Source of the DNA: Pyropia yezoensis | Taxonomy: Eukaryota; Rhodophyta; Bangiophyceae; Bangiales; Bangiaceae | Length of the DNA: 64,000 nucleotides | NCBI GenBank assembly: GCA_009829735.1 | Contig: CM020619.1 | Coordinates: 11,088,375 to 11,152,374, forward strand | Direction: 5' to 3' | Part shown: positions 6,101-62,463 of the stretch, in pieces | Numbering within the stretch: the first letter of the stretch is position 1 | How the letters are laid out: every line of letters starts with the position of its first letter | Program-made: the position numbers and the translations under genes | Notes under the pieces: generated by a model | The model's database searches: none | What the model was told of the DNA's origin: nothing | Seen by the model: only the letters and a program-made list of their open reading frames with translations

Positions 6101-6824
6101 GTTCTCTTTTTGTCCGTCGCCCCGACCTTGCCCGGCTGTGGCTGTGACGCGCGGCGGGGACGGCTGGCCGGCGTGAGCGCCCTTGTGTGGGGGGTGCGTC
6201 GGTGGGGCGGTTGCGGCGGCCGTCGGCGGCGGCGGCGTGGTTCCGGTGGTCTCCGGCACAGACGCCGCGCCGGTGGGCGTGTCGTGTGTGGCGGCAGGCC
6301 GGCTGGGCGCTGTGCGGGAGCGCACGAGTGCGGGCGGCGTGTCGGCCGGACGCTGCGGCAGCGGCGGGTTGGTGTTTCTCTTCTTGGGGCGTCGGGCGCC
6401 AGTGCGCGGTTGTGGCGTCGCGGCGGCGGCCGCTCGGCGGGTGCGGCGGCGGTGCGGCGGTGCGGCGGTGCGGCGGTGCGGCGGCGGCGCGGCAACGCTG
6501 CTGCAGTCGACGGTGTGGTGTTGGTGTTGCGGGGTGGCGGCGGGGAGGCGGGGTGGCGGCGGCGGGGCGCAAGCGCGTGCGCCTGAGGCGTCCAGACGGC
6601 CTGAGCACCTGTTGTGTGCCCAGGTGGTTCCTGGCGGCTGGCTATTTTACGTGTGCGGTGGGCTGTAGGACGGGTACTGAGGTGTGGCTGGTCACGGTGG
6701 CTGCCGGTCAACGGGGTGGGGCGAGCTACAGGACCGCCACGGTTGGTGACGCGCCTTGCTGACGGGAGTCTTGAAAGGTGGCTCCCGACCACACCACCCC
6801 GGGTGGTGCAGGGCGACAGCGGCC
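3183..6824. other. Intergenic GC-rich low-complexity DNA, no convincing gene
   Basis: Both strands carry several open frames of 100-500 codons, but they are Arg/Pro/Ala/Gly-rich mirrors of each other with no recognisable domain or consistent start. The stretch 4840-5010 is AT-richer and may be a UTR or spacer. Poly-C and poly-G runs occur near 5550, 5745 and 5840. A (GTGCGGCG)n-like tract lies near 6450-6490. The last ~60 bases form the leader of the gene that starts at 6825. Confidence 0.5.
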
Positions 6825-40471: not shown

Positions 40472-41598
40472 CCGGCTTTCACTACAACGGGGGAGTGCTC
40501 GTCGGGATGCGCGGATTGATTGAGGACGTTGCTCCTCATGGGGCGGGGTTGTTGCGGCAATGGATGGCCTTGTTGGCTGCAGTGCTTTTGTTGGGACGTT
40601 GAACGGCGGGGGGATGGCCGCAGAGGGGCTTTGTGTTTCTGGTGGCATTAACCGTACTCTGTGCCAGCTGGCGGGCTAGTTGGGCCGGGGTCGACAGAGG
40701 TTACCTACGAGGGAGGCTGATTAGGAAGGAGGGGAGAGGTGGGGAGGCGACAGGATGTCGCCAGCGCCGTTGGATCGCAGATATTTTGTTGTTCATGCCC
40801 AGCGAGCTGCCCTGCGAGAGGAGCCGGCACCGTGCGCACCGTTACGTGCAACCGTAGCACCTTGGCACCTCATCCCATCTCCGCTAGTGACGCCAGTGCG
40901 TCGTCGGCAGCGCACGTGCTGCGTGTCCTTCGATAGGCTGCCCTGTGAGCGCGTGCAGCGGGGCTGGGACGGGAAAACGTGCGTCCACTAGCGCGGAAAC
41001 TAAAATACAGGTCGGCATCTCCTCCGGATCTCGTGAGGAAGCACGAGTCGATGGACGTGCTTGCGAGACTGTAAAGGCCCGGTCCTCGATGGGAAGCCCC
41101 ATCGAAGCCCCTCGAGCAAGTGCCCATCGAGTTCCCCTCGAAGGCCCATCGAGAACAGCCCTCGATGACCCTTTCAAGCCCCGTCGAGTCCCACCGAGCT
41201 TCCATCGAATGCGCGGTCTCGACGGGCTTCTGGTGGGAACAGACGATCTCTTCCACTGACCCTCCCGGGCACGGTGGCGCCACCCCCATCGCCCTGCCTC
41301 CCCCTCTTCCATTCCACCCCGCTGCCCCACTCCGCCGCCAAATTCCCACTCTCCTCTCCTTCCCCGTTCCTCCACTTCCATCCCCGACTCCTTCCCCTCC
41401 CTTCACGCCCCGGTTACTCGACCCACCGCGCCAGCAGCAGGCCGGTCGGCACAGACCACCCGCGGGGGAAGTGGGGGGGCGGGCGGCGCCGACGTGGTGA
41501 AGCGCCGCCCGTGGACCCCACAGTCCCGCCCGCCCGCCCGCCCGCCCGCCCGCTCGCCTGCCCCTGTTGGGCGCGCCTCGCGGCCGGGGCGCCCTGCG
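40472..41598. other. Intergenic spacer, includes box cluster copy 2
   Basis: No coding frame supported. 41081-41252 holds the inverted copy of the CATCGA-box cluster. 41260-41560 is C-rich and ends in a (CCGC)n run before the exonuclease gene. Confidence 0.5.
41081..41252. repeat. CATCGA/CTCGAGG box cluster, copy 2 (inverted relative to copy 1)
   Basis: Roughly twelve boxes of CCCATCGA, CCCTCGA, CCCGTCGA or their complements end at CTTCTGGTGGGAACAGACGAT (41227-41247). That word is the exact complement of the start of copy 1. Spacing between boxes varies from 6 to 15 bp. Confidence 0.65.
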
Positions 41599-42611
41599 AT
41601 GGGCCGCCGCACCGCCGCCGCTGCTGCGCCCGCCCCCCCCCTGGTGGCACCCGCGTCGGCAGCCGCCGCGTTTGCCATCCCCGCCGCCGCCGCCGCTGCC
41701 GCCGCTGTTACCGCTGCCGCCGGCTGTTTCCGGGTTGGCTGGCGGCCGCGGGGCCTCCCCACCGCCCGGCGCGCGGTGGTTGCCAGCCGCCCCCCCCCCG
41801 CCCTGACCATGGGCGCTGCAAGGGGCGCGGCCGCGGCGGCAACGACAGCGGCGCGTGGCGCGGGGGGCTCGCCCCCCCCCCCCCCCCCCTGCCCACCCAC
41901 CACGCTCATCACGTGGAATGTGGCGTCCCTGCGGGCGCTCCTCCGCAAGCACCCCACCGCCCTGGAGCGGCTGGTCACCGCCCCCCTTCCCCCCCCCCCC
42001 GGATCCCCCGCGGGCACCCCCCCGCCCCCCCCCCCCGACGTGGTGGTGCTCCAAGAGACCAAACTCCAAGCCACCCACGAGGCCACCATGCCCCCCCTCC
42101 CGGGCTACACCGCCCACTTTTCCTCCTCGGGCCCGCCCGCCGCCCGCGGCTACGCGGGCGTTGCCATGTACGTGCGCGACGGCCTGGCGGCCGCCACGGC
42201 GGTCACCGCCGGCGTTGGGTGGGCGCCTGCCGACGCAGAGGGGCGGTGCCTGACCGCCCGTCTGCCGGGCGGGCGGCCCGCGGTGGTGGGGGTGTACGCG
42301 CCCAACGCGGGGGTGGGGCTTAAGCGGCTGGCCTTTCGGGTGGCGTGGGACGCGGCGCTCGTCGCGCACGTGGCGGCCGTGCGGGCCGCCGCGGGGGGGG
42401 CGGGGGTGGTGCTGGTGGGGGACCTCAACGTGGCGCCCGACGTGCGGCTGGACGTGTGGGAGGGGCGTAAAAAGGGGCGGGTGGCGGGGCTGACTGCCGA
42501 GGAGCGGGCGGGCTTTGCGACGCTCCTCACGGGGGGGGGGGGGGGGGCTCCCCCGCCGGCATGGACGCTGCTGGCGACGACGGCAGCGGCGGCACTGACA
42601 GCGGCGGTGGC

Positions 42612-42645
<34 letters not shown>

Positions 42646-42896
42646 GCCTCGTCGACGCCTACCGCGCGCGGCGGCCCGACGGCGCTGCCTTCACGCACTG
42701 GAGCTACCGGGGCACATACCGCCCCGGCGACGGGGGCGACGGCACCTCCCGCGGGGGGTGGCGGCTGGACTATGCGCTCGTCGATGAGCAGCTGTGGGCG
42801 GCGGGGGGGGACGCCTGGGGCATGTACGACGTGCCGGGCTCGGACCATGTGCCGGTTGTGGTCACGCTGGGGGGGGCGGGTGCCGGGGGGGGGTGA
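41599..42896 (+). CDS. Exonuclease III / AP-endonuclease family protein, frame broken at a G17 run
   Basis: DNA base-excision repair enzyme of the EEP superfamily. Motifs in order: TLITWNVASLRALL (Asn107, metal site), VVVLQETKL (Glu153), RGYAGVAMYVRD, AVVGVYAPNAG, VLVGDLNVAP (Asp275, Asn277). After position ~42547 another frame gives YRARRPDGAAFTHWSYRG, GWRLDYALVDEQLW and GSDHVPVVV (catalytic Asp-His). The switch falls at 17 consecutive G (42531-42547), so an assembly error or a homopolymer lesion is likely. No splice sites are obvious. Residues 1-~100 are Ala/Pro-rich and could be an organelle transit peptide, so a plastid or mitochondrial location is possible. The upstream in-frame Met at 41494 is less likely because it reads through a simple repeat. 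The stop is TGA. Confidence 0.75.
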
Positions 42897-43337
42897 GCCC
42901 GGGGGGGGGGGGGGAGGGGAAATGAAGCAGGTTAGGGGGGACCCGAGGCACCGTGAGGCTTCACCCCCTCTTGGGAGGTCCCGCCGTTTGGGAAGTGCCG
43001 TTGGGCGAGGCGCGGGGGCGTGCCGCGGGCGGGGAAGCGGCCTCCCACTTCCATGGCCCTCCCCCGGACGGCTGCGCGTCACCGTACGTGTGGCGCCGCC
43101 GCCGCTGCCGCGCGTTTCCACCTCGTGTCCCTACCACGTCAACTGTCCTTCCCCCCCCCCCCGGCTCCCCCCCCCCCTTGTTGTCCTCTTCTGGGCGTCA
43201 CCAAACACCGACGCTGACGGCGGCGACCGGACGGGCGGTGACGGCCGGCGGGGCGCAGCGGGTACGCGCGGCGGTGGGGGGCGCCGCCACGGGTGGGGCG
43301 TCGCACCGCGTGGAACCCCTACAACGCCCCTGCGGGT

Positions 43338-43369
<32 letters not shown>

Positions 43370-43700
43370 GTCCCGTGCGTCGGCGGCGTACAGCACGGGA
43401 GAGAGAGCGCCCCACCCCCCCCCCCCGCGGCGGATAGGTAGCGTGCACCAGGTCGCGCGAGAGGATGATTGAAAAAAAAAAAAAGAGAGTCAGAGTCAGA
43501 GGAAAAGTGGCGCATACTACACCCATGGGGCCTCCCCCCCACCCCCTTCTTCCGCTCCCCCTCCGCCCGTCAGACCCTCCTGCTCGGCTCCCCCTCCCCC
43601 CGTCCGGCTTCCCTCCTCTGCTCCTCCTTCCCCGCTCCAGGCCCCCCTTCTCCGCTGCCCCCACCAGTACAGGCAGCCGACTTGCGCCCGGCGCGGGGCG
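42897..43700. other. Intergenic, no gene seen
   Basis: Starts with a G13 run directly after the exonuclease stop. It contains a CCG repeat near 43340-43370 and an A12 tract near 43470. Presumed 3' UTRs of convergent genes. Confidence 0.5.
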
Positions 43701-45278: not shown

Positions 45279-46286
45279 GATTGGGGGGGAGGGAGCGGAA
45301 GGGGGGTCGGCGGGTGCAAGGGAAGGGGGGAAGGGGGCGGTGTGGGGGGGCGGGGGGGGTTTGGAGCGCCCTAAATTCGTACAGGCAGGGGGGGCGGACG
45401 GGAAGCTCCGGGTAGGGTGGCGACGGGGGGGGGGGGGCGGGGGGCAGACGGAGGGATGGCGGGCGGATGGAAGGGGTGGGTCGGCTGGCTGCCTGGCGAC
45501 CGCCGCTGCCCAGCTCTTGTAGTGCCCCCGCGTCCCGCCTGGCCGCCTCCCCATCCGGATGGATAGCCACAACCCTGCCGTCGGGGACCAGCTTCACCCC
45601 CCCCTTCCTCCTCGACACCCCCCCCCCCCCCCCCCCCCTTGCCCCGCCTGCCCAGCCACCGACGCGCCCACCCCCCCCCCCCCCCCACCCTCTCCCCATG
45701 CCCGCCGCCGCCGCCGTCGGCGCCGCCGGCAGGGACGGGGCAGGCCGCCCGTCTGGCGTCCCCGCCCGGTACGGGGCGGCCGCACCCACTGGCGGTCAGG
45801 CGGCGGCGGCGGCTGTGGCCTAAAGACTGGCGGGCGGGCGCCCGTCTGCGACGCGCGCCCCCTGGTCAGCGCGTCGCTGCCCGCTGTCCGCTCGGAAAAA
45901 GCGGGGGGGGGGGGGGGGGGGGGGGGGAGGGGGGGGGGAGGGGCTGCGAGGGGGGGGGGTGGGAGGGCGCGGGCCACCCCCCTCTGGCATTGGTGGGCGG
46001 TGCCCCCTCTGGCATTGGTGGGCGGCGCCCCCTCTAGCATTGGTGGGCGGTGCCCCCTCTGGCATTGGTGGGTGGTGGCATTGGTGGGCGGTGCCCCCTC
46101 GGCGGCGATCGTCGTACGACGCGTCGGCGCGCACCACTTGCGGGAGGGGGCGGCGGGTTGGCGGGGACGGTAGGGGGGGGGGGGTTGGGGAAGCGTCGCC
46201 TCCTCTCCACCAGCGCCTCGCCCTCAGCGAGTCCCGCGGCGCCTCTAGATCCAGAGCACGGCAAAAACGGCACAACCAACGAGGCA
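45279..46286. other. Intergenic with extreme poly-G/poly-C tracts and a minisatellite
   Basis: Contains C runs of 18 and 16 near 45620 and 45675, and an almost pure G tract of about 45 bases at 45902-45958. A minisatellite of 25 bp units lies at about 45977-46100 (GCCCCCTCTGGCATTGGTGG plus GCGGT, about five copies). No coding frame supported. Confidence 0.6.
45977..46100. repeat. 25 bp minisatellite, about five copies
   Basis: GCATTGGTGGGCGGTGCCCC recurs at 25 bp spacing, and the last unit is shortened to 16 bp. Confidence 0.75.
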
Positions 46287-48608
46287 GGAATTGCAAAAAA
46301 CGCGTCTCACTGATATTCTTGTGAAATTGGGCAGAGAAAACCCAGGGCGGGGGGGGGGGGCGGCGCGTGCGCCGGCGGCCCCGCGCCAGCTGGCCAGCCG
46401 CGGCCGGCTGCCCTACGCTGATCTCGCGTGCGGTCACGCGTGCACATCGGAATCACTGCTTGAACTGATTCAGATGTGTCTTTCGGGTTATCCTCGCCCG
46501 TGATTCTGTCACATCACTCAAGATACTGTGTCGTGCGAATGGGCTGTCTGTGACCGCGCCACGCGTCACTGAGCAGCAGTGTAGGCCATGGAGACCGGTC
46601 CGAACGTCGCGTCCTTCACGACTGGAACGTCTCCGCGCTATGGCGGCCCCCGTGAACCCTCTTGGCTGCCCCTCCCCTCACTACTACGGTGTATACTGCC
46701 GCTTCTGTGATTGCCGCCCTTGCCCGTTCGCCGGCTCGCCGCCCCGTTCCCATCTGCTGCCGCGCGTTGTCACCGCTGTGTGCCAGCCGCCGTTCCCTAA
46801 ACGCCACGGCTGGCAAGCATCCCCGAGACGCCGCCGCCGCGGACCTTCGCGATTGTCCCACCCTCAGCTCATTCAGTGTCGGCTACCACCGCGACTGCCC
46901 CGCCGTCACCCCCCCGCCCCAGTCACCGGCTGGTCCCAGCGCCCTCTCCGTCGCTAGCACCTGAACACACACCCCGTCTCTGCCAGTATTAGCGCTTTGA
47001 TGGAAACAACCCCGTGGACCTGGTCCCGCAGTCGTCCGGAGGGCCGTCATCCTGCCTTGGAGCTTGCGCTGCGCAGTACCCCACCGCTGTCAATTGCACG
47101 GCCATGAGGCACGTCGTCACCGAGAAATTCAACTTATGCACAGCCAAATGGTGTCTACGGCCTCGTTTGAGAGACCAAAGGTGCGGCCATCCCCGTCACC
47201 AGGAGCAGAACAGGATGTTCAAGTGCGCACGATTGCTAGATCGGGAACAAACCCAGAACGAGCAATACGCAGTTTCTGCATTCGGCGATGTGGTCATCGA
47301 CTGTAACAACAGCAGCTCAAGAGGTCCTCACGAAGGCTTCACTTTACTTCTCTGCTCATGGTCCTGACGCCATGAGGCTTCTCAGCGACCTGGTGTTGGC
47401 CTGTTGAGACACTGTGCTACGAGTGTTCTCTACATTGATTCCTCGGTGTGTGCGTAGTGGTGGCTTGTCGCAGTACTACGGAATGAACCCCAGGACCAAA
47501 CCAAGCAAAATCGAGTGTCACCGACGACCGACGTACCAATACAGGTCGACCCAGAAAGGGTCGCTGAAAACACTTGTGAGGTCAGAAGTGTGCGGTGATC
47601 AGCAGAAGTGTCTCTATGAACGGCCGCCAGGCAGCAGCGGCGGTGGCTGTGGCGAAGGGCGACGGGCAGGCGGCAGCGGGAACGGGGTTGGCGACGGAAC
47701 AGGTAGCAGGGAGGCCTGCCGGCGGCGGTGGGGCCGGTGGTCAGCCGGCAGCGGCGAGGGCGGCGACCGGCCGGCGGCGGCGTGGGCGGTGGCCGGCCGG
47801 CAGCCGCGGGGGCGACCGCCAGCCCACGGTGGCAGCAGACCAAGCCAGCTGGCGGTCGCGGCGACCAAAGACAGCCAGCCGTGGCACCGGTGGCGTTGGC
47901 GGGGCAGAATCCAGCCGGTGATGGCGAGGGTGGCCGCCAACCGGCCGTGGCGGGGGGGGCGTCGGCCGTCCGGCGGTAGCGGTGGAAGCCACCAGCCGGC
48001 GGCGGCGGCGGAAGCGGAAGCGGCTGGGTGGCAGCAGATAGAGGGCGGCGGGGAAGGCACTACGGAGCCGGCGGCCGCGGTCGCCGCCGCGGGGGAGCGA
48101 TGGGCAGCTGGCGGCGGCGACGGCAGCCGCGGCCGGGGGGCAGCGGCCAGCCGAAGGCGGCGGGTGCGGCGGCCAGCGGGTGGCGGCGGCGGCGGAAGCG
48201 CCGGGGGGGCAGCGGCTAGTCGGAGGTGGTGATGGTGGCGGTCAGCTGACGGTAGCGGTGGCGGTGGCGGGGGGGCGATGGCCAGGCGGCGGTCGCGATG
48301 GCGGCCGCGGTGGGTGGCCGGTTGGGCGTGACGTCGACCACGTTGCATTCTGAGTGACACGTTGCGCCTCACGAGACCGGTCTAGACTTTTGTGTCCGGG
48401 CTCAGACATGGACGGTAATGTCGGATCAGTCGTGTCCGAGCGTTCTGTCTGTGCCGGACCTCTCGTGCTCTTGATCTCGAGGGGGACTCGGCTGAACGCC
48501 GGTAGCGGCGGTTCTATTGCGCTCCATGCTCGCGATTCTATTGGCTGATAGATTTCCTCTGGCTGATGTTCACCAAGATCTTAGTGAGACGCGTTTTTCC
48601 CGATTCCT
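46287..48608. mobile_element. Possible element bounded by ~45 bp diverged inverted repeats
   Basis: AAAAACGCGTCTCACTGATA (near 46295) recurs inverted near 48598 as AAAAACGCGTCTCACTAAGA. Weaker similarity continues on both sides (GGAAT before, TTG.TGAA after). Both read inward, as terminal repeats would. The 2.3 kb interior has no transposase: 46400-47580 is mixed-composition DNA, and 47620-48310 is a degenerate GGC/GGCAGC-rich tract. Two opposed copies of a small repeat would look the same. Confidence 0.35.
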
Positions 48609-49525
48609 TCCCGCAACCAACACACCCCGCCCTTTCCCCCCACCGCGTGCGCCCGTCCATGGCCGGGCCTGTCGACGTTTTTTTTTTGTTTTTTTTTTTG
48701 ATGCCAGACGCCCAACGACGGCGGCGCGCGCAGGTGAATCCGCCGGCGCCCACCCCCACCGCCGGTCCACACACATTAAAAAGGCGCGGAGCGCAACACA
48801 CAGCCTCGGTCATCGGCGTGCACTTGTCGAGGCGGAACAATGACCTCTTACATACCTAACCAACCCATCTTTTCCTCGCAAAAAACTCCGTTCGGAGACC
48901 TGACCGGTACATATCTAGGAATCTATAGAGTACAACCTCCACAGTACGGGATGGATATGCCCCGAATATGAAAACATGCTTGAGTACTGCTCACTGCTGA
49001 ACGGCATCTTCGCAATTCAGAATGAACGACTTTCAAGGCAAGAACGTGTGATCTCCTCGGGTCTTCGAACAGGCCAGCTCTCTATGCCGTCGGACGGTGC
49101 GCCCCCAATCAACACTCTGCTTTGATTTCGGGGCCTCCGGTTAGGGCCAATAGTAATCAAACATGTCTGCTCGCAAAACTCGGTTGGAAAAGCCCCTAAA
49201 ATATTGTTAATACTTTCGGGTTTTCCGCTCAGGAGCTGTTTATCAAAGGTTGCGCCCCCCCCCGAAATCAAACCTTCTCTAGATCGTCCGATGACATAAA
49301 GAGGCGGCCTTCCAACACGCAGGTCCAACCGAGGCAAACACACGTGGCTGCACCAGCTAACGATTGAGTGGTCTACGCGCTCCCACGTACCCCACGTGCA
49401 CTGTAAAGTCCAGGATCAACAGAACCCCACGTCTCCTCCGACTACCGCCCCCAAGCAACTGACGCCCACCACTCACGGCAGCCCGCTGAACATCACCGCC
49501 AGCTCCCCGCGTCTGCCGCCTAACC
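48609..49525. other. Intergenic, AT-richer, includes a foldback repeat
   Basis: No coding frame. A TTAAAAAGG TATA-like word lies near 48775. 49078-49304 can fold on itself (separate entry). Confidence 0.45.
49078..49304. repeat. Candidate foldback MITE
   Basis: CTCTCTATGCCGTCGGACG at the left pairs with CTCTTTATGTCATCGGACG read inverted from the right. Inside, TTTGATTTCGGGG at 49128 pairs with CCCCGAAATCAAA at 49261. Total length is 227 bp. No target duplication could be identified. Confidence 0.4.
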
Positions 49526-49945
49526 ATGGGCCGCAAGAAGCGGCCTGCCGTTCGTATGGACCCTGGCAAACCCCGTCGTCGCCGCGCGCCGGCTACCATA
49601 CGCGCCCGACTGGCTGCGGCGGATGCCAAGGCCAAGCCCGTCCGCAGGTATCGCTCAGTAACAGTGGCACTGCGCGACATCCGCAAGTTCCAGAGGACTA
49701 CGGAGCGCCTCATCCGCAAGGCGCCGTTCGAACGCCTCGTCCGAGAAGTTCCTCAAGGCTAATAACGTGACGCGCGCTTCCAGGCGGGCGCTTTCGATGG
49801 GCTGCAGGAGGCCTGTGAAGCTTACCTCGTGGGGCTCTTTGAGGACTGTGTCTTGTGCGCCGTCCACGCCAAGCGTGTCACCGTGATGGTCAAGGACATG
49901 CACCTGGCGTGCCGTGTCCGCACCCCCCCGTATCTACGGATGTGA
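49526..49945 (+). pseudogene. Divergent histone H3 with two consecutive in-frame stops
   Basis: A single frame aligns with histone H3 over its length and without gaps through the tail up to HRYRPGT (here RRYRSVT). Clear blocks are [19 protein letters not shown] (H3: VALREIRRYQKSTELLIRK), [24 protein letters not shown] and [15 protein letters not shown]. Where H3 has QDFKTDLRFQ this copy has QG, TAA TAA (49760-49765), then RDARFQ, so the reading frame is kept but the protein would stop before the second helix. In the tail, K4, K14 and K36 are retained, while K9, K18 and K27 align with Arg. The C-terminus (VRTPPYLRM) differs from RIRGERA. Loop 1 has ordinary H3 length, unlike most CENP-A. It lies tail-to-tail 58 bases from the Helitron's protease frame and could be a captured or relict copy. 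Confidence 0.75.
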
Positions 49946-50003
49946 TGAGAGTCGGATCGTTTGAGGGGAGTGCTCGCCAGTCACCGCGGAGCCCTTCTGA
50001 CCT

Positions 50004-50687
50004 TCATTGTTTGACAGGGAGGAGGAACATCATCTGGTTGGCACGGCTCCGTAGGGCTGCGTCGGTCTTATGCAAACGCTGCGTAGCAAATGTGTATGTA
50101 AACAGCGCCACTCTCTCAATACGCCCGCGCAGCAAGTCAAAAGTAAGACGCGAGCGCAACCGAGGCATAATGCTGACGTCAAATGACAAAGGAACGTCGT
50201 CACACAGCAACTGTGCAGTGTGCACGACAAATATTCGGCAGTCGTCATTGTTGGCGTGCCCCTGCTGGGGAGATGTGCCATCCATGTACACTTCTGACAA
50301 CCTGCGCCGCAACGTTCGCCCACCACGTCGTGCCTCTCCCTCCAGCCACAGCGCCAGTCTCATGCCAACTCGCTCGGAGTGAGAGCCCTTCGAGTCATAC
50401 TGCACGATCCCGCCGTCCTCTGGGTAGACCGCAGCCAGCGTCCAATGCGCCACTCCGTCGAGGACAGGAACGAAAATAGCACGTTGGGCAAAGATGTCGG
50501 ACCCGCGCTGATGTAGAACTGCTGCGTTGTGATCGAGATCAAACCCGTCCCCATTCACCGTCATAACGAAGTACGGCCCAAGAAGCGTACAGCTCGCTGA
50601 CACCACCATAGTTGCCCGACGGAGATCGTGGCGCTGCTGCAGCAGCAGGAAGAGCGCGTGAATGCCTTCACTAGTCAGCCACCCACC
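50004..50687 (-). CDS. Ulp1/C48-type cysteine protease domain at the Helitron 3' side
   Basis: The frame opens with GGWLTSEGIHALFLLLQQ (Ulp1 family: WL.D..I..YL..L) and carries the catalytic set in order and spacing: His in VAHWTLAAVY, Asp in VQYDSKG, the oxyanion Gln in SPQQGHANND and Cys in NNDDCRIF. The usual DCGV is DCRI here. Such domains cleave SUMO or related conjugates, or act as element-encoded processing proteases. It follows the Pif1 C-terminal segment on the same strand, in a different frame, after a stop at 50691-50693. A short intron or frame lesion must separate the two. The stop is TGA. Confidence 0.75.
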   Translation of the reverse strand, partial: GGWLTSEGIHALFLLLQQRHDLRRATMVVSASCTLLGPYFVMTVNGDGFDLDHNAAVLHQRGSDIFAQRAIFVPVLDGVAHWTLAAVYPEDGGIVQYDSKGSHSERVGMRLALWLEGEARRGGRTLRRRLSEVYMDGTSPQQGHANNDDCRIFVVHTAQLLCDDVPLSFDVSIMPRLRSRLTFDLLRGRIERVALFTYTFATQRLHKTDAALRSRANQMMFLLPVKQ

Positions 50688-50690
50688 TGG

Positions 50691-52418
50691 TCAAAATGCG
50701 ACCAGGCCATACCGTCGGGCACCGCCAACGACAGGTAGACGCGCGACGGTCTCGTTCATGCTACTCTCAGAGGCGTCGGATCCCATGACCTGCGCGAGGT
50801 GCAGATGCTCCCTGGCAGATAGAGCGCACACGACATGGGCACCGAAGTCGTTCGCGGGCTTCTGCACAGGTGCTGCCACTGCGGCCCGCCCTTGCGCTCC
50901 ACTGTCGGTTGGACGGACAGCTTCCAACACAAGATTGCAGGGACGTACGGCGGCGGGAGAAAGGACCACAGGACGGGAGTCCGGCGTAGCTGCCACCCTA
51001 CGACAAGATGTCTGCGACAGGCGCGGCCCCCACACACGTACGGGCTCTCGAGAGGCAGCACAGAGCCGCTCATCCTCAACAATGAGGGCCTTCTCCGGAC
51101 CGTACCTCTTGACAGCCTCCCGGGTGTGTTTTTGAAGCAGAACCAGCTGCTTCAGCATCTTGAGACGCGACAGGACGAACTAAGCCGTGCACGATGGGCA
51201 ACGGTTACATGGCCACGCGGGAATGCACAGCATGCTCACCGTCCGCCCTTGCAGCTTGTAGGGTGTCATAGCCAATCCTGGCGTGATGGGAATCTGTTCC
51301 AATTGCGCCATCACACCCTGCCCGCCCGCCTCTTTTGGAAGCTGAATGCGGCTACGAAACTTGCTCATCACAACTGGGAATGATCCCGAAGCACAGTCGT
51401 CAGGAACGCTCGGTAGCGCCGGCCTCGTAGTTTCGACACCGTCCACCTTCACCCCTACAATCTCAGCCGACATAGATGGCACGAGGATGACACCACCACC
51501 GTCTACAGTCACAGACCGAAAGGTAGCACCACGCGGGAACTGCACCGCCTCCACGACGGCGCGGGTCCCGTTTGCGACGCCCAGCTCGGTCGCTAGGTTT
51601 TTGGTGACATGCACAGGCAGACCACAGTAAACATCCAGTAGCATCTCAAGCTCCCCTGTGGCTTGGCTGGGCATCTCCAGCAGAGCCTGTTGTTGAGCCA
51701 CCGTTAACTTACGCCCAGCAGCACGGACCACCGCAAACAACTGAGCGACGCGTCGCGGCATACCGCGACCCGCCCCACCTAACAGCAGCTGAGTGATTCG
51801 AGTGCGGACCTTGTTGGTGAAGACCACCACGGCAGGCTGCTCTGCCGGTAGCTCCTTCGCTTGCCGTTCAGACATGACCCGAGTGTTCAGCTTGGAGATG
51901 CAATCGTCCGTCCACACGCCCCTGCGAACCGCACCAACCATCGCTTGGTACTCCTTGTCGCCGCTCTGACGCACGTTCTCGGTCAACCCGATGACCGTCG
52001 AGAAAAGGCGCCAGAGGTGGAATCCCCGCCGCTGCACGTGCATCCGAGGAGAGAGTTGGACGTCACCTGCTGCACCATCTTCTTCGTGACCATCACCCGG
52101 TGGATGGGCTACTACTGCAGTCGGGGGCGCATCCACTTCGGCTCCACCGTTAACGAGCTTGGCCTGCCCAGCACCGCTCCCAAAACCATCCACGGGGCCG
52201 CCTCCGTGTGGGGTGGTAGCACGAACGACCGTTACGGCACGACCAGCTTCGGGTGCACTCACTGCCTCGCCCTCACGCGCGCGACCTCGGTATGCATCAA
52301 TGCGCGCTGTCACAGCTGCACGACGCTTCAGTACGGCGGTGTAGGGTCCACGGCGGGCACGCACGCGCACTCGCGGGCGCACGCCGCACGCACCCCACAC
52401 CCACACCACACCACACAC
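50691..52418 (-). CDS. Helitron Pif1 helicase, C-terminal half and linker
   Basis: From about 52030 downward the frame reads RGFHLWRLFSTVIGLTENVR (Pif1 motif III-IV region: LW..F..V..L.EN.RQ). VVVFTNKVRTRITQ, LPVHVTKNLATELGVANGTR and ITPGLAMTPYKLQGRTV (motif V: A.TI.K.QG.T) follow. Motif VI is split: ...PSCTA, TAG at 51180-51182, then FVLSRLKMLKQLVLLQ, matching the usual (Y)VALSR...L..L.LL. Homology on both sides of the TAG is in the same frame. Beyond it a ~155-residue linker (RVWGPRLSQTSC and on) leads toward the protease. The 120 codons before RGFHLW are low-complexity and probably belong to the interruption rather than to the helicase. Confidence 0.75.
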
Positions 52419-52610
52419 ACTCTCGACGGCGGTGACGCACTCGGGGGAGGTGGTGTGGAAGCCGGGGAAGAAGAAGGGTGTCGGGGGGTGGGTGGTTGAA
52501 GTGGGGGTGAGCTTGACGTCGGTGAAAAGGAGTTCTCAGGTACAGTGGTTCTTTGCTTCCGTTCTTCGGTCTACCCTCCCCAGGTCTCCCCCTCTCGCCC
52601 TCGGTCACTC

Positions 52611-52618
52611 CGTATAAA
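52611..52618 (+). promoter_or_regulatory. TATAAATA box inside the helicase interruption
   Basis: A consensus TATA box in CACTCCGTATAAATACCCC, on the strand opposite to the Helitron genes. No supported gene lies downstream. Confidence 0.35.
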
Positions 52619-52920
52619 TACCCCTGGGGGGTCCTCAGAAGGCCCTCCGTGTGGTCCTCTCGCGGTTGGGCACAAGTTTCCCTAGAATCGCCGGTGTGCG
52701 GCGATCCCTCTCTTACAGAGCTCGTCTGAGGGGGTCCACGCCCCCCCTCGGGGTCGGTGTGCCCGTGGACGCCCGTAGACATGATGGTTAGAGGATAGAA
52801 GCTTCGGATGTCATGGATGGCAGGCTCTCGTTGGTCGGGATGGCAGATGGCAGCCAGCCGCCTTGACACTCTGAGGCCGGGTGCGCTGTCCGCGCTCGGC
52901 CGCCTCGGCGATGTCTCGCT

Positions 52921-53046
52921 TGAATTGACACTGGCGCTACGTTGCGCTGTCGGCGCCAGTTCTTGGTCAGCGGGTGGATGCCTTGCTCGAATTGACACTG
53001 GTGCTACGTTGCGGTGTCGGCGCCAGTTCATGGTCACCAGGTGGAT
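52921..53046. repeat. Two 67 bp tandem units, each with a hairpin
   Basis: GAATTGACACTGG..GCTACGTTGCG..TGTCGGCGCCAGTTC occurs twice, starting near 52922 and 52989. Within each unit ACTGGCGC or ACTGGTGC can pair with GGCGCCAGT. Confidence 0.7.
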
Positions 53047-53274
53047 ACCGTGTCAGCATTTACGGTGTGCGGCCACGTAGCATTGACAGCCATCGTCCGG
53101 TTGCATCGTCATCACGGGGGCAGGCGGGATTGAACCTTGAACCTTCCAGATTCGAAATGTGAATGAAGACCAATCGTCCAGGGAACGCTCTTGCAAATGA
53201 TGACATCCGTTACGATTTGAGATCCGGCCTCTGGGGGAATTCCAAGTTGCGACTTGGAATTGCAATGTAAGGAT

Positions 53275-55631
53275 TTAGTCCTTACAGGCGGCCTCATGAG
53301 CAGCCGCGCTGTCCACAAAAAGAGACGGAGCGCCGATGGGAGGCATTTGGAAGAAGTCCCCACCTTGGCAGACGTGCAAACCACCGAAGTCTGCTTGGTT
53401 CTCCATGAGAAGCCGCAACCGCCCTTCCATCTCTGCAAGCTGCTCTGCCGATAGCATCGACACCTCGTCGACGATGACCATCAGGGTCCCGCGGAAAGCG
53501 GCACAATGTTGAGGGGAGGGGGCCCCAGGAGGCTTCCGACCTTTGCCAGAGAGCTGGACCAAAGAATGGAGTGTCGAACCACCAATTGAAGACGCAGCGG
53601 GGCCCGTGAAGGCCGCGTCCAGCACCGCTCGCGGCCACTCCCAGCTGCGGCAGAAGAACGACACTGCCTCGATGACCCGCGTCTTGCCAGTGCCCCGCTC
53701 ACCGCAAACATAAAACAGCAGTTGACTGCCGGAAGTGGAGGCCGCAGGTGCAGACATTCCAGGCCTGCTGACCTCCTCCGTGTCGGTTTCCGAAAAGAGA
53801 AGACGCTGCCGACGGCACCAATGCTTAAACATGGAGGGGGGTCCACTGGTGTTTCCGCAGACACGCCAGCAACCCTCAGCGGTTGAGTTACATCCGCGAG
53901 CGAGTCCGCGAGAGTCTCCACAGTAACACAAGACGCGAAAGTAGGGTCGCCGTTACTGTCGTCAGCTGCTTCACACGTCCCATCGCCGACTTCGTCAAGA
54001 ACCTCGCCTGAACGAATCCGAGAGCACAGGGCGGCCGCCTCCTTCTCTACGACAGCGGGGTCAATGCGGTCACATGAGGAGACGGGCGGTGGAGCATCCG
54101 CCGTCGTAACGTCTGACGCATCAACGTCAAGACCCTGTCCCGACTGTATCATGCCGCTCCATCCGAGAGCTGCCTTGGACGCCACACATAAGAAGGCGGC
54201 TGCAGCGCGGCACAGTGCAGAGCTCAAAAGTCCTAGCGCCCCTGATGACGGAAGACGAACGACCAATGGGTCCCTGGGAAGCTGTGAGGCGTTTTGGACG
54301 TCCTCCATACCACCCGCAGCGCAAACTTTAGCCGCTTCTGCAAAGTCCAGCGGTCCGCCATCGCCGAAGCCGTCCCCATTCCCCATCTGTTCATCCGCCC
54401 TGTCTGCGTCGCTGGCAGCGTCACAGCCTCCCTCCGCAGAACCCCCCCCCATTGCAGCTTTTTCCGCCGCCGCTCGGTCGGCCTCATTATTGGTCTCAAA
54501 CCAGGACTGCATCACGTCCATTAGCACGATGGACGCAGAGTCAAACACTGTGCGCGCGTATGATGCCCACCAAAACTCGCCTTCCGCCACGAAATCGTCG
54601 CGGGACCGCCATGGCGCAAACAGAAGCAGAGCAATCATGCCATATGTACCTTGCTGGTCGGCATCGACCAACAGCTCCCTGTCAGGAAGGCGAGGCCCGT
54701 AGATGCGAGGTACGCATCGCTGGCGACGCCGACAAAAACCGTGAGAGTGGTAGAGTGGGTGCTCCTCAAGGTAACGCATGGTCGAAGAGCGCTCGGCAGG
54801 GTCCTGCTCGGTCGATGCGTCCGAGAGATCATCAGCGTCGACGGCAGGAAGACGCGACAGATCTGCAGCTACGACGCTTGGTGGCAGCTTGACTTGCTCC
54901 GAAACCTCCACAAACTGGTACCAGTTCAACGAGCTTAACACGGTCGGCCGACACGCGTACTCGGTGAACGAGTCAACAGCGACAACTTCTCGGACGGTTT
55001 TTCCACCCCCCTCCCTGCTCTTCACACCACTGCCAGCTCTGCTGCCAACCACACGGCTCGACTGGCCGTCCAGGCTGTCTCCAACAACGTCTCCATTGAG
55101 ACGGCGCTGCGTGCGCAACCGAAGCACGCCGCTGATGGACTCACCGTGCATCCGATGCAGAGCCTGTGCCAACAGAAAGCAGCCAAACGAGTGCGAGCAG
55201 ATCTTTCCCGGGTAACCAAGCACGAGCACTGCCGCCAAGGGCGCAGGTACCTGCATGCGCGAGGAGGAGCTGTAGGCCATCGACAGTACCCGCCGCGTCG
55301 CCGTGTCGACGTCCTGCAGGGGCCCATCAGCCTTCTCAGCTAACAGCTTCTTCTTGAACTGAGCCAACACGTCCGCCGTACCATTCTCCACATCCTGTTG
55401 CGCCGTCGTCGCGTACTTGAGTTTATAGTACACATCTGCCGTCGCCCTATCGTTAAAGAGCACGCGCAAGTCGACATTGCAGCGGCAAACCACATAAATC
55501 AAGGTGTTGCAGGGGTTCAGGTACTCGCATCCCAGAGCGCAAGCTTCTCGGCGTCCACCGGATAAGACGAAGCCCAGTCCATGGTGTCCAAAGTTGACGG
55601 TGATGGAGAGACAACGGCTGCCGCGCTGCAC
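53275..55631 (-). CDS. Helitron Rep tail, linker and Pif1 N-terminal ATPase
   Basis: The frame begins with NFGHHGLGFVLSGG and CEYLNPCNTLIYVVCRCNVDL (Helitron Rep: NPYN..L...WR.N.D) and the tyrosine motif DVYYKLKYATTAQ that would carry the Rep nucleophiles. A ~450-residue linker follows (YQFVEVSEQVKLPPSVVAAD, HPLYHSHGF, PWRSRDDFVAEGEFWWASYA), as in other Helitrons. After a frame change near 53830, the Pif1 ATPase appears: FYVCGERGTGKTRVIEA (Walker A), LMVIVDEVSMLSAEQL (Walker B) and HVCQGGDFFQMPPIG. The frame ends at TAA just after the donor-like GTAAGG. The overlap with the Rep frame (55517-55631) marks another frame change or splice. Confidence 0.75.
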
Positions 55632-57505
55632 GCGCTCGGCTTCATTGAAGCCGTCGGTCCCCTGCGCGCTGAGAGGAGAGGGGCAGAAGGGAGACAGATC
55701 GAAGATGCTTGGCGCTCCAAGATATCGGATGCGGTCACACGACTACCGCACCCGTCCACGCTGCAGACGGCAACGACTGGCTCGTGGGCGTACTTGCCAG
55801 CCGCTCTCTGAGCACACTCTGGGATGTCCCGCGCAACCATGCTGCCGCCACAGATTGTGCATGGCACAAATGGCTCCGAGAGCGGCAACGACGCTGTCAC
55901 GCAGCTTTCTGCCCATAGCATGAACCGATCTTTGAAGCCGGGGTGCGATGCTATCGCCTCTTTGACACGGTCCACAGTCGGCGGCATCCCCCGCAACCAT
56001 ACGAGGTTGTGCGCGTGCAGTGCTCCTGGTCCCTGCGTCTCCATAACACCAAAGAAGGCCTTTGTCACTCCGAAGACGCCTCCGCCCTCGACAGACCTCC
56101 CGACAGACTCACACGACCCAAGCAGCTCCCGCACGACGATGCCCAACATCTGCCCGAAGTAGCACGCGTCGGCGACAGGGTCCTTGCTCACAATCCTGAA
56201 GCGCGCACCTCGTGAAGGCATGGCTTGCAGACCACCGTCGAAGAACACGTCGGCGTCCACAGCTACCTCGTAATACATGATGGAAAGGGAGCTCACGTCG
56301 TCTCGCTTAACGGTGAAGAAGACATGGGGAAACCCGTAGAACTGGGAGAGGGCATAGGCTTCCTGTCTCCACACGCCGCGCTCCTTGTTCGAGTTTGGGA
56401 AGCGGCTCAATGTCGCATACACCTCGTTCATTAGAAGAGCAGACGGGTCCCCTCGCGGAGCCCGGACGGCGCGCTGACCACGCCGTACGGCAGCTCGCTC
56501 ACGCCCCTTGCCAGCGAGGGGATCACGAAGCTCTCCAACAGACACCCCTTCGATGGGGGCATGCATGGCTGGCCGCATCCGCACATGAAGAGCGCCGCGA
56601 GACATCATAGAGGCCCGTCCGACAATGTCAAACGCCAGCAACCGAACGAGAGGGTGCTGCGCAAACTGACGGCTCCCATCGAGCAGCATTCGATGAAAGT
56701 ATACAGCCAGTGACATCTGCCCGGCTCGCTTCTCGTCTGGTCTACCGCGGCCGTACGGATAGAGCTCCGGCAGGCACCTTGTCACCGTCCCAGCCGCCCT
56801 GCCAGGCACGATGGGCCCGCCACGACGGACAACAAAGTTGTCATCAAACACTTGAGTCTCACGGTCACGCGTGGAAGGTGGCGTGACATTCACTAGCGCC
56901 GATGAGCTCAGCGCCAGCTCGCAGTCAGTCGCTGGCGGATCAAGGCGGATCTCTCCAGGTTCCTCAAAGGATCTCAACAGCACCCCCGCCACGTCCGAGC
57001 GCGCCCGACAAATATCCGCTTCCATGTGATCAGACGTGTCCATCTCCCCGCCAACAAAGGTCCCGTCCAGCGCGTCCCCATCGCGGGCCGGAGAAACGCG
57101 TTCCAAAGCCTCGTTGTCCACCTGCACGTTCGCATACTAAGAGTTATTGGATATGAGGAAGGCGAGGACGTCTGACACCACCTTACGTCGAGCGTTGACG
57201 AGGCGCCGAGACGCAATCATGGCCGCGGGAGCAAGATGACCAGCAAAGACGATCCGGATGACGCCGTCGCAAGCACCTTCACCAACCAGACAAAAAAAGA
57301 GAGTGGCTGCAGGATCACTGACGATATCATAGAAGTGAAAGTGTCCCCGCAGCGCCCGCTGCCGCCCGCCGGATAGCACCATGACGCCCGCCTTCAACGC
57401 GACGAGCGCAACAAGGTTGGCTTCCACTTGGGACATCTCAGACAGCGACGCCGGCAGCACCCCGGTGGCGTCTGAGTTGGCCAGAGACGGCTTGGGCATG
57501 TTCAC
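55517..57505 (-). CDS. Helitron Rep: leader, Helitron-like N domain and HUH motif
   Basis: The leader MPKPSLANSDATGVLPASLS plus GGRQRALRGHFHFYD matches the Helitron pattern SLAN.LW.G..P.EL...QRALKGH. One TAG (57137-57139) lies between ISNNS and YANVQVDNEAL, a stretch that is normally continuous. RCLPELYPYGRG, MSLAVYFHRMLL, LSQFYGFPHVFFTVKRDD and GVMETQGPGALHAHNLVWL follow. The last is the HUH metal-binding motif (here HAH) with its usual E.Q..G.LH context. A Cys-rich tail (CTICGG ... CSVDGCG) resembles the zinc-binding segment after Rep. Rep nicks and rejoins single strands during rolling-circle transposition. The in-frame codons before the first Met (RRPGVN) also fit, so an upstream exon is likely. 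Confidence 0.85.
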
Positions 57506-59271
57506 TCCAGGTCGTCGCAGACTACGATGACAGGTCCATCAGGAATTCTGCCCGGTTGTCTAATTGTTTGAGCGCGCCACTCCGCTTACCTCTGAAGGGC
57601 CCGGGCTCCATTCCTGCTCTCCGATATCTGCTTTTTCGTTATTACACAGAATGGTGCACGGCGTCGCGCGGGCCGATTTTGGATGGGGCCTTGGGAAGGT
57701 CTACCCGTTAGGTCAACCAGCATCGAGGCACTTCTTGCTCAAAGCACTAAGTGCCTTGAGGCAATGTCGTGCACTTCCGCCCCTTCTCGGGGCATGACCC
57801 CGCCCGACGCCACGCACACGGGAGACGCCTTCCCCCTTGCTTCCTGGGGCCGCGCACTGTCGGCGCCTGTGGAGAACCCACTCCGCTGGAGTATGCCCTC
57901 CCGCACTGCACTCCACCAGCCAAAGGTGGAACCGCCAGAGGGAAGCGGGCTGGGGGGGGCTGCCTACCTGACGTGCCTGGTCCAGGAGAGGGGTCCACGA
58001 GAGGAAGGGGGGGGAGAGGCCCGCTACATCAGGAGCATGAGGGGCACCTGCCCAAGATGCCACAACGGGCACTGGACACATGAGGACCAGGCTTCTTGGT
58101 GGACCATCAGGCAATTCCATGACATGGAACATTTACCCCAAGAACGGCCATTTCAAAAACGGTGACCCGCACACGGAAAGAGGTCCTCAAAACAATAGCC
58201 TCCAGCCGTCCCATGGCTCCACTCTAAAACCGACTACCCTTTTTTCAAGCCGCAGTTAGCACATAGGCCCGGACCGACCCCCGAGCCGGGCAAATCAATG
58301 CGAAAGGATGGCCCCACTTCAGGGTCGACAGCGGCCGGTCCACCCAGGGTGTCCCTGAAAGCGGTACACTGTCCCGGGGACCCAAGGACCTCATGAGTTC
58401 GCACGAAACTCTGTGATCCTTCTGTCAGCATGGCGCCCGTGCACCCCGCCATGACCGCTGTGGAGCCCGGGCCCGAGCCGAGAAAGACCTCCATGTATCT
58501 CTTTTGTGCAACGTACCATAGCGCGTCCGTCTAGTGAGTATTCTACCTTGGGCGTCATTTGATGCCAAGGGCATCCTATGATTTCCACTTTCGCCCCAAG
58601 ATTCCGGTCTGTTCCAGACCACCTCGGTCTGTTCTGACGACAGAATCGGACTCAGCGTCGTCTGTTCGCCTTTGGGGTAAATCATATTCGTGAAAGTCTG
58701 CGTGAGGCGACAGTGGTGGCGATTGTTTTTCAGTTGCATTGCTCATCGGACAGCACTCTTCTGTACGCACCTCCGCCTCCCCCTTCGGCTTCTTGGTGCA
58801 TCAGGTGGCGCCTCGTCAGCCCCCAACGTTTACTGGCAGTCCCATTCACCATTCCCAAGAACGCCAGGTTCTTGGTGTCACCCGCGGAGAAAGAAGGGGG
58901 GCTTCACTGGGCAGGGGGGAGGAGGGGTGGTGGTCCCCGGTGGAAAGCCGCGACGGTGGGGATGGCGAAGGTTGAGGGGGATGGAAGGCGGATAGAAGCC
59001 GAGATCGGCGGACGACAGAGGTGGGAGGGGGCGATGGTGGGCGGCGGCGGGGCGACGCGAAAGATAGAGGCGTCAGAGACAGAAGACTTGCCGCTGTGGC
59101 GGCCCCTTCTTTGGCCCGCAGGCCGTTATTGCTCACCGCCCATGTGCCTCTGTACACCCCCGGCGCCGTGCGCAGCTTCATCGCCCAGGCGATGCCACGA
59201 AGGGTTGTACCTTCCGCAACCCCGTCCTACCCCCTTCCAGACGCACTTGATGCCCCCGCCACAGAGTAATG
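57506..59271. other. No supported gene; probably Helitron 5' flank and old repeat DNA
   Basis: Frames up to 160 codons exist on both strands of 57680-58170 but show no domain beyond an isolated CPRCHNGHW. 58600-58650 has two GGTCTGTTC words in a partly inverted context. 58880-59060 is G-rich. Confidence 0.45.
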
Positions 59272-59906
59272 TGTAGCGTTATTGGGCCTTACATACCCCA
59301 CACGCACACACACACAGGAAACCACAGACAGGCCAGGAATGAACAGGTAAGAGCCCAAGCGTGATCCACTCGCCCACCCCGTCAGAAGTAGAGGTAACAC
59401 GGACAAAAGCCCGAGGGAGCAAGAACCCAAAGAACTGTTGATTTTACAAGATGGCCTCGGGGAGACCCCGGAGCTACCCTCAAGAACGTCCCCCCTGACC
59501 CCTCCAGGGGCCCAGAGCGGGGCACCCAGAGAGGGCCCCCAGCAGGCCAAGTGGCAGCAAGGCACCGGCCACTCACCGGGCCAACTATCGAAAAGAAAGC
59601 GAAAATCCCCCTACACACAAATGTCAATCCCCCCAAAAAAACCGAGGGGGAAAAAGGGGAAAGAAACGAAATCACGCAAGGAAAACAAATACGAAATTCA
59701 AGCCAATGACAAAGGGGGTCAACACGCCCAAGATCCGGGCAGGTCCTCGAGTCGGGTGGGCCAATCAGGGCTCCGGGTGTGTCGCCACAATACCGGGCTA
59801 CCTGGCCAAGGATCCTCGGCCAGCGTGGGCTCCACGTAACACTAACGACCGGGTGCAAAGTCACCTCACCGAGGGCCCCTCTGTCTCCAAAGGCCAGAAC
59901 GCCACA
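59272..59906 (-). mobile_element. Solo LTR-like copy B, same family as 1239-1880
   Basis: Read on the minus strand it begins TGTGGCGTTCTGG and ends ACGCTACA, the TGT...ACA pattern of LTRs, and it aligns with copy A throughout its 635 bp. Flanking 5-mers TAATG (59267-59271) and TACTG (59907-59911) agree at four of five positions, fitting an aged target duplication. No internal region adjoins either side. Its orientation is opposite to copy A. Confidence 0.7.
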
Positions 59907-59911
59907 TACTG

Positions 59912-61126
59912 GCAGTCATGGGTGCTCTATAGGGGCCTTCTGGGCTCGGGGGCATTACCCTGAGTCTCTCCCTTCAGCGGAGGCACCAGACATAGCCATC
60001 GCAAGACATACAGGAGGCTCGGGAGGAGCCTATCTGAGGAGGAAAGCCCTACTTTCCGTCCCCTCAGCTCCGCACCCACCACTGTCTGCGGCAGTAATGG
60101 AGCTCAGGGAGCACCCAGGGGGTGCATAGATACTCCTCCGCCTGCTAGGGCCGGGTAAAACTGCCCGGGTTCCTGAGCAGAGGACGAAGAAGAGAAAAAC
60201 GCTTCTTCTGTGCTGGAATTCAACACCGTTTTCCTACGCAGGATCGCTGGAATTGACGATCTTGGGGCCCGGGATCGCGGGCATCATTTGATGGCCGACC
60301 GGACATCATTTAATGCCCGAAAACCGGTAGAAGAGACACTAAAAGTGTAGGCTGTTTTTGGTTGTTTCGCTACCCCCCCCGCTGCGACAGACACGCACCG
60401 CCGCCATTTGAGGTACCCACGACTGCCACACACGTGGGAGGAGGGCGCACGAACTGGAGGTACGGGTAGGCCGGGGGGGTGCGACGGGGGCGGCTGGGAA
60501 GCGTGACGCAGAAAGGTCGACCTGAGACTCCGAAAAGGTGCGCGGCAGCACATAAGGAGCTCTTTCGACGGCTGTACGCTCAGAGCACGTCTGCAGGGAA
60601 AGGCGGTGGTGAGCGATGGTTGCATGGATGCCACCGCATCTCACGGGGCCAGTGTGTGTGACGAAGTGTGAGGTCAGGCAGAGCAGGCCAGGCAGGTATA
60701 CAGAGGAGTACGCGGCGGCGGCGCGCCGATAAACGCCTGTGGCTCGGGGGGGCTGGTAGGCGAAGTGCATGGACGTGGCAGGAGAGCGTGGGGCGGGGGA
60801 AGGAGTGGGGGGCAAGGCCACTTCGCAGCGTGGGCGCTGAAGACGGGGGGGGTGGCGGCCGTACTGGGGCGGGCGAGCCTGGCTGCCTGCCTCCGCAGCG
60901 GAGCGGCGGCCGGGACGCAGACCGTACCCCCGGCCAGTCCACACCGCTCGACAGGGAGGGGAGGCGGCGGCGGTTGCTGGCGGTGGTGTCGCTGTGGACG
61001 CCGGGCTCGGGACGGTTGCCACAAGGACCCCCCCCCCCCCCGTGCCTGTTTGGTGGTCACAGCGGCCTCGGAGGCTGGCCGGCAGCTCGACGTCAGGCCG
61101 AGTTGGAGCGTCGGTCTGCCGCATGG
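59912..61126. other. Intergenic, no gene seen
   Basis: GC-rich low-complexity DNA with mirrored frames (60340-61120). A hairpin-like CGGGCATCATTT...ATGCCCG lies at 60272-60317. Confidence 0.45.
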
Positions 61127-62463
61127 TACAGTCGGTAAGGAGAAATTATTGCCTGATTTGATCCGAACCTCCAGTCGATTTATTGTGCACCAAGAAAAAC
61201 GTTGCCCCATTGGATCCCCCGCTCAGTATTTGGTCCCCATCCCCTTGGCGGCAATCACACACCGCACACGGCGCTTCATCGAATCCACCAGACAGGCAGA
61301 GAAGGCGTCAGGGATGGCCTCCCACTCCTCACACAGGGCCTTATAGAGGTCCTCCTTGTTCCCGGGCTGCTCCTCCCGGGTCACCAGACGGCGCTTGAGC
61401 TCGTCCCATGCATTCTCGATCCGGTTGAGGTCTGGGCTCTGGCCTACCCAGGGAAGGCACTTGAACCCGAGCTGGGCCTTGACGTCGCGGCTGTACTTGG
61501 ATGCGTGGCATGGGGCAAGGTCCTCCTGCAGCCAGGCGGCATCAGGAGCCCCAAAATAGGCCATAATGTGGTGGATGATGGAGTCGCCCAAGACCCCCTC
61601 ATACTGGGTCGAATTCATGGAGCCCTTGACGAGCACCAGGGGGTTGCGACCACGCGCCAAGAAGCCCTTCCACACCATGATGGACTGCCGGCCGCTTTTG
61701 AAGGTAGGATGGAGACAGGCGGGGCTAAAGCGCTCCCCGGCGCGCCGCCAGACACCAGCGCGCTTGTTGGCGGTGCGCACTTCAAAGCTGTTCTCATCGG
61801 TGTAGAGAACCGCCTTCCACTCGGCCCCCTAGTGCTTGTGGGTGCGGGCCTACGCCCGACGCTTGGCTTGGTTCTTGTCTGGCACGAAGGGCTTACGCGC
61901 GGGGATGGCGGAATTGAAGCCCTGCGCGCGCAGGGCACGCCGCCCCGTCCAGCGTGAGACGGGCACGGGGCGCCCACGGTTGAACACCCGAGTCAGCGCG
62001 GCGGCCGACAAAAAACGGTTGGTGTTGGCCAGCCGCACAAGAGCGCACACATCACGGGGGCCCAGAACATCCAGGCGCCTCCGCGTCTCTGGCTGCTTGG
62101 CCATACGGTGCTTGCGCGCCTTGGCAGCAAACCAGGAGACACGGGAGACAGGGATGCCGAGGGCGACGGCGATGGCTCCGTTGGAATAACGCTTGGTGGA
62201 GAGCTCGAAAATGGTGGCCTTCTGGCTAAGGGTGACCATTTTGCGTCTGGTAACCATCGTGCCTGTCGGGAGGTAGACCAGAGGAGCAGGGCCCCTGGGA
62301 TAGGATTTTATAGCGGCCGGAAGGGCAAAAAAGGCGCTTCACTGGTCAAAAGTCACCCCCCTCCTGATATAGAATTCGCCGCTCTCAGCGTGTGCCGCGG
62401 CGAAGTCGGGCCGCCGACAGGCTCGTTTCTGGATCGGGCAATGATTTTTTCTTACCGACTGTA
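61127..62463 (-). mobile_element. Full-length Tc1-like element (DD34E) with inverted ends and TA duplication
   Basis: The element runs from CAGTCGGTAAGG (61129) to its inverted copy ACCGACTG (ending 62461), 1333 bp, between TA dinucleotides at 61127-61128 and 62462-62463. The inverted ends match over ~33 bp (CAGTCGGTAAG.A.AAAT.ATTG and on). Size, CAGT start and TA target are typical of Tc1/mariner. It carries one transposase gene on the minus strand. Confidence 0.9.
61223..62257 (-). pseudogene. Tc1-family transposase with two in-frame TAG codons
   Basis: 344 codons, the normal Tc1 length. The N-terminus (LSQKATIFELSTKRYSNGAI, then ALGIPVSRVSWF) is a helix-turn-helix, followed by a second one (RDVCALVRLANTNRFLSAAA). 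The catalytic triad is Asp in VLYTDENSF, Asp in WLQEDLAPCHAS and Glu in SPDLNRIENAW, with 34 residues between the last two (DD34E). TAG codons at 61850-61852 and 61829-61831 lie just before the first Asp, in RRA*ARTHKH*GAEWK. Relatives have Trp at both places, so TGG-to-TAG transitions are likely. The frame is otherwise uninterrupted and the motifs are intact, so loss of function is recent or the stops are suppressed. Confidence 0.85.

Follow-up and report, generated by a model that had tools for sequence, protein, structure and literature searches.

A decayed Helitron in Pyropia yezoensis whose Rep-Pif1 protein most likely ended in an Ulp1/SENP-type C48 protease domain

Among the accessory domains known from Helitrons are OTU proteases and VTD deubiquitinases, the latter with biochemical activity (PMC9741609). 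In the same account, ubiquitin probes reacted with all three zebrafish Helitron VTDs tested and NEDD8 with two of the three, and SUMO1, SUMO3 and ISG15 with none (PMC9741609), an argument against taking SUMO for granted as the target of every Helitron protease. For the OTU proteases of Helentrons, a role in signalling towards chromatin modification has been proposed (PMC4067079). Ulp1 domains are described from Ginger1 and MULE (PMC2836005) and from the Mutator-like KIU/Kaonashi elements (PMC13317346), and Cryptons carry a C48 peptidase (PMC3212892). Among other helpers, fungal Helitrons may carry TET/JBP dioxygenases (PMC12730594), and the RepHel proteins of Pleurotus, as far as the available text of PMC4289320 goes, are without the earlier-known accessory domains, including the cysteine protease, with other new domains reported for them. 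An Ulp1 domain in a Helitron is not described in the parts of the open-access literature consulted, and Repbase or UniProt, outside this search, may list one; PMC5240378 and PMC11645255, in their accessible parts, name Helitrons as well as Ulp1-type proteases but do not connect the two.

The stretch of P. yezoensis DNA analyzed here, 64 kb in its entirety and referred to below as the window, contains on its minus strand a coding track running from 57538 to 50004 in which Pfam matches and motif positions reveal the parts of an autonomous-type Helitron protein. The track opens with a DUF6570 domain, the N-terminal part of the Helitron protein (57140-57538; PF20209, E 4.5e-14), followed in a common frame, across an in-frame TAG at 57137-57139, by Rep (Helitron_like_N; 55520-57136; PF14214, E 2.2e-13) with the HUH motif ALHAHNL at 56003-56023. 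A search of the N-terminal Rep piece against the PDB returned a chance match alone (E 0.55). The C-terminal part of Rep lies in another frame together with the spacer that leads to Pif1 (53484-55742); Pfam returned no match for this segment, which is assigned from its coding signal and from the position of the two-tyrosine motif YYKLKY within 55404-55436. The N-terminal half of the Pif1 helicase, with motifs I-III (GTGKT, DEVSML and GGDFFQMPP), occupies 53287-53757, within a Pfam PIF1 region (PF05970) of 53278-53952 that gives E 1.4e-17 for 53278-53757. The C-terminal half, at 51183-52334, is recognized from motifs IV and V (FTNKVR and TPYKLQGRT) and has in Pfam just a weak Pif1_2B match under the cut-off. 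Directly behind an in-frame TAG at 51180-51182 follows FVLSRLKMLKQLVLL (51135-51179), which we take to be Pif1 motif VI. The locus thus presents a Rep with HUH motif and two tyrosines and, C-terminal of it on the same strand, a Pif1-family helicase with motifs I to VI in order.

Beyond motif VI, the minus strand continues with a linker of 147 codons (50694-51134), for which Pfam gives a DUF2237 match alone, under the cut-off, and then, past an in-frame TGA at 50691-50693, with the protease domain (50007-50690) and its stop codon (50004-50006). An earlier, sequence-only reading had ended Pif1 at 51180, which the position of motif VI corrects, and had placed the protease directly after the helicase; strand and frame are indeed shared, but the protease lies about 0.44 kb downstream, with the linker and the TGA in between. 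The span it had delimited, 50004-52040, takes in the protease, the linker and, of the helicase, about the C-terminal half, whereas the whole coding track is that given above.

Judged by its profile score and motifs, the segment 50007-50690 is a real peptidase C48 (Ulp1/SENP) domain. Pfam Peptidase_C48 (PF02902) matches residues 61-185 with E 2.1e-9 and 38 bits against a cut-off of 20.7. A phmmer search of the PDB up to E 10 returned 16 sequences, comprising 13 SENPs (SENP1, 2, 3 and 5), two Ulp1-type proteases and one unrelated protein, uropepsin (E 1.4); the best match is SENP5 (E 8.5e-8). On the minus strand the catalytic codons are located at 50679-50681 (Trp), 50445-50447 (His), 50394-50396 (Asp), 50265-50267 (Gln, the first of a QQ pair) and 50238-50240 (Cys), corresponding to Trp4, His82, Asp99, the Gln pair 142-143 and Cys151 of the protease, which is the Ulp1 order. 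The sequence-only reading, which had recognized an Ulp1-type protease with WL, His, Asp, Gln and Cys in this order on the Rep-Hel strand, is borne out by these matches and codon positions, and by the protease lying on the minus strand in the helicase frame. The PDB alignments reveal two peculiarities: the residue after the catalytic Cys is Arg here versus Gly in both aligned SENPs, SENP5 and SENP1, and the loop from Gln to Cys is two residues longer than in SENP5. Single-sequence structure prediction of the protease did not yield a usable model (mean pLDDT 33).

In terms of reading frame, the C-terminus of Pif1, the linker and the protease share one frame that is interrupted by two in-frame stops. 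Over 50007-52334 these are the only stops among 776 codons, versus 14, 15, 28, 27 and 27 in the other five frames, and an open frame as long as the 162-codon ORF at 50694-51179 was retained in 41 of 5000 base shuffles. A codon score, with a table learnt from the Rep and Pif1 segments alone and leaving out linker and protease, gives 0.079 bits per codon for the linker (50694-51131; shuffle mean -0.123) and 0.130 bits per codon for the protease; neither value was reached in any of 2000 shuffles, and for both segments the other five frames score lower than the helicase frame. As controls, the score of the solo LTR described below was reached by 151 of 2000 shuffles and that of the neighboring histone H3 region, scored in the tested minus-strand frame, by 1735 of 2000. 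In its own plus-strand frame, the H3 pseudogene scores 0.083, as high as the linker, and the codon score therefore detects any coding sequence, whether or not it belongs to the element. Base composition does not decide membership either, since the G+C of the protease (0.573, against 0.60-0.61 for Rep-Pif1, and 0.663 and 0.784 for two other genes compared) equals that of a Plavaka-type piece elsewhere in the window (0.573).

A sliding coding signal starts at about 57550, changes frame at about 55650 (55600-55700, from frame 1 to frame 2) and again at about 53800, fades inside the LTR, resumes, and drops at about 50000 just past the stop codon of the protease. The protease ORF contains no ATG upstream of the WL motif, so a separate gene starting inside this ORF would lose that motif. 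Taken together, the shared frame and the coding linker speak for a single polypeptide, or at the least for parts of a single element, rather than for an unrelated neighbor; because the frame is broken by two stops on the way from helicase to protease, the fusion is deduced from the frame and not read directly. The protease is thus most likely, as judged from frame and codon usage, the C-terminal domain of a RepHel polyprotein.

That this copy is still active is very unlikely. Three in-frame stops interrupt the Helitron track, the TAG between DUF6570 and Rep, the TAG that adjoins motif VI and the TGA before the protease, and the track changes frame twice, perhaps by frameshift or across introns. 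In addition, a stretch of 947 bp in the helicase gene (52340-53286, minus strand), bounded by TGTAAGG...CCCTACA and flanked by a 5-bp duplication CCGCC (53287-53291 and 52335-52339), is a probable solo LTR that landed there. By chance, such a TGTA...TACA pair flanked by a 5-bp duplication would be expected 0.007 times per shuffle; the pair was picked post hoc among 16 TG...CA candidates that have repeats of at least 5 bases on their flanks. Joining the flanks of the LTR yields a 541-aa open frame with Pif1 motifs on both sides. Within the LTR, a 67-base repeat occurs twice in tandem, the two units being 88% alike. An alternative genetic code for the in-frame stops was set aside by judgement: TAG and TGA in the Helitron and TAA in the H3-like pseudogene all occur, and the ORF at 9377-16873, open under the standard code, was counted against it.

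In the window, no convincing candidate for the Helitron termini, whether a 3' hairpin with CTRR or inverted repeats, was found, and at E <0.005 the pieces of the Helitron protein match just themselves, consistent with a single copy that is possibly truncated. A scan for hairpins followed by CTRR gave seven entries at four places between 46359 and 48308, versus a mean of 3.3 per shuffle. With other settings there was none in the linker (0.3 expected), none in 49000-50003 (0.77 expected) and one at 46395-46410 (0.79 expected); with chance expectations as low as 0.3 and 0.77, a missing end signal in the linker or in the kilobase downstream says little. Between the two flanks there are seven perfectly matched inverted pairs of 11 bases, which look like G+C-rich noise. 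An inverted pair of 43 bases with 79% complementarity is present at 46283-46325 and 48569-48611. Support for the earlier reading's proposal of a Helitron protein with Ulp1/C48 at its C-terminus comes from the common frame and the coding signal across the linker; the ends that would frame it were not found.

Relatives were sought in two collections. In viral contigs, the protease, N-terminal Rep, C-terminal Rep and C-terminal Pif1 queries, the last with some LTR-derived residues, gave 5, 0, 1 and 19 pattern matches, respectively, none of them a relative by tblastn; the N-terminal Pif1, DUF6570 and linker ORFs were left out of this search. Two degenerate HUH-motif patterns in the same viral contigs gave one locus, dissimilar to all seven protein pieces (best E 0.35), and none, respectively. 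In prokaryotic genome contigs, the protease query gave 23 pattern matches and no relatives. Since the collections are viral and prokaryotic, the absence of relatives from them is weak evidence.

The surroundings of the track contain further genes and mobile elements. A histone H3-like pseudogene (49535-49942, plus strand) is convergent with the protease and ends about 60 bp from its stop codon; its halves match Pfam Histone with E 6e-10 and 8.9e-17, the second half is closest to H3.1 chains of the PDB, and two adjacent in-frame TAA codons interrupt it. Whether as a gene captured by the Helitron and carried within it or as part of the flank, either origin is possible. A Tc1-type transposon at 61126-62464 has DDE_3 and HTH_Tnp_Tc3_2 matches between 32-base inverted repeats of 88% complementarity, and a Plavaka-type transposase match (E 1.1e-6) lies at 33428-35413 on the minus strand, with a C2H2 zinc finger match under the Pfam cut-off upstream of it. 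An inverted repeat pair of about 600 bp, 79% identical (59307-59904 and 1241-1836), is perhaps a non-autonomous mobile element. At 6750-16873 on the plus strand, two overlapping open frames, perhaps one gene, carry DUF6606 in the first and DUF3638 and DUF3645 in the second, which has 2499 codons. Rfam at the gathering threshold and a tRNA scan of the whole window returned nothing.

On balance, we think it probable that this locus is a dead copy of a Helitron that encoded RepHel, linker and C48 protease as a single protein, and that its protease would, in active relatives, deconjugate a SUMO-like modifier in cis. The source element would have been an autonomous-type Helitron with one large protein in the order DUF6570, Rep (HUH, two Tyr), Pif1, linker and Ulp1/SENP-type C48 protease. 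In relatives still able to move, the transposon ends would be nicked and rejoined by Rep, with unwinding by Pif1. The protease, held in cis at the C-terminus, would remove SUMO or a related modifier at the site of transposition; its substrate would be either the transposase itself or host proteins of replication, repair or chromatin. That the whole was translated as one polypeptide, that active relatives exist, that the substrate is SUMO-like and that transposition benefits is what we infer beyond the coding track. Ubiquitin or NEDD8 is a possible target by analogy with the VTDs.

Alternatively, the protease could have been a gene of its own within the Helitron, encoded by a second ORF that follows RepHel on the same strand and whose product acts in trans, as OTU genes of Helentrons can be arranged. 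In favor of such an arrangement are the two in-frame stops that split helicase from protease; the linker has ATG codons shortly before the protease, and OTU proteases are carried by Helentrons as additional ORFs (PMC4067079). However, a separate gene would have no need of a linker that stays open and coding in the helicase frame all the way back to motif VI, and we regard this arrangement as unlikely. Distinctly unlikely, in our estimate, is a Helitron that stops between Pif1 and the protease, with the C48 ORF stemming from a different transposon, of which it would be a fragment, or from a SENP gene, either captured or the host's own. Common strand and frame, the coding linker and the lack of an ATG before the WL motif all argue against an unrelated neighbor, and the linker scan, which found no end signal there with just 0.3 expected by chance, adds a little; on the other side stand the unlocated 3' end in the hairpin and CTRR scans, the other mobile elements of the window, the G+C that the protease shares with the Plavaka-type piece, and the Ulp1 domains known in other transposons.

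A different question is what the protease would do as part of the RepHel protein. Clan CE proteases related to C48 process viral proteins, and the domain could by the same token cut RepHel itself, releasing Rep and helicase. Ulp1-like proteases are common to Polintons and several viruses (PMC10175614), which is in keeping with such a role, but the nearest solved relatives of the domain are SUMO proteases and Rep and Hel of Helitrons are described as domains of one transposase (PMC5148889); we give self-cleavage little credence. Deconjugation of SUMO-like modifiers is favored over polyprotein processing by the similarity to SENPs.

Compared with known systems, the locus resembles the Helitrons and Helentrons with OTU or VTD, in which a rolling-circle RepHel is combined with an extra ubiquitin-system cysteine protease, encoded either in frame with RepHel or by an ORF of its own (PMC9741609, PMC4067079); unlike in these, the protease here is of the C48/Ulp1 type. 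The AP endonuclease that follows the helicase in Helentrons was not found by Pfam in the ORFs at 50007-51179, and an Exo_endo_phos gene within 41260-43434 lies on the opposite strand, about 7 kb from the Helitron track. Ginger1 and the Mutator-like KIU/Kaonashi elements share a transposon-borne Ulp1, which in Ginger1 is the C-terminal domain of the transposase (PMC2836005 and PMC13317346), yet they have DDE transposases whereas the locus here has HUH and Pif1. CryptonF and CryptonS offer a C48 peptidase in a DNA transposon, but as tyrosine recombinase elements and, in some CryptonS, with the peptidase in an additional protein (PMC3212892). We tentatively suggest that a RepHel-Ulp1 fusion transposase is conserved in a Helitron lineage of this host group and removes SUMO in cis where transposition takes place, as a third, independently acquired class of ubiquitin-system protease beside OTU and VTD. 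If intact relatives keep the protease, Helitrons would have recruited a third unrelated deconjugating enzyme after these two, and control by SUMO or ubiquitin would perhaps be something that rolling-circle transposition generally needs or has to overcome; fusion to the transposase also points to where the enzyme acts. As far as the consulted portions of the literature go, ubiquitin-system helper proteases on transposons are known already, and what is new here is the pairing of C48/Ulp1 with RepHel.
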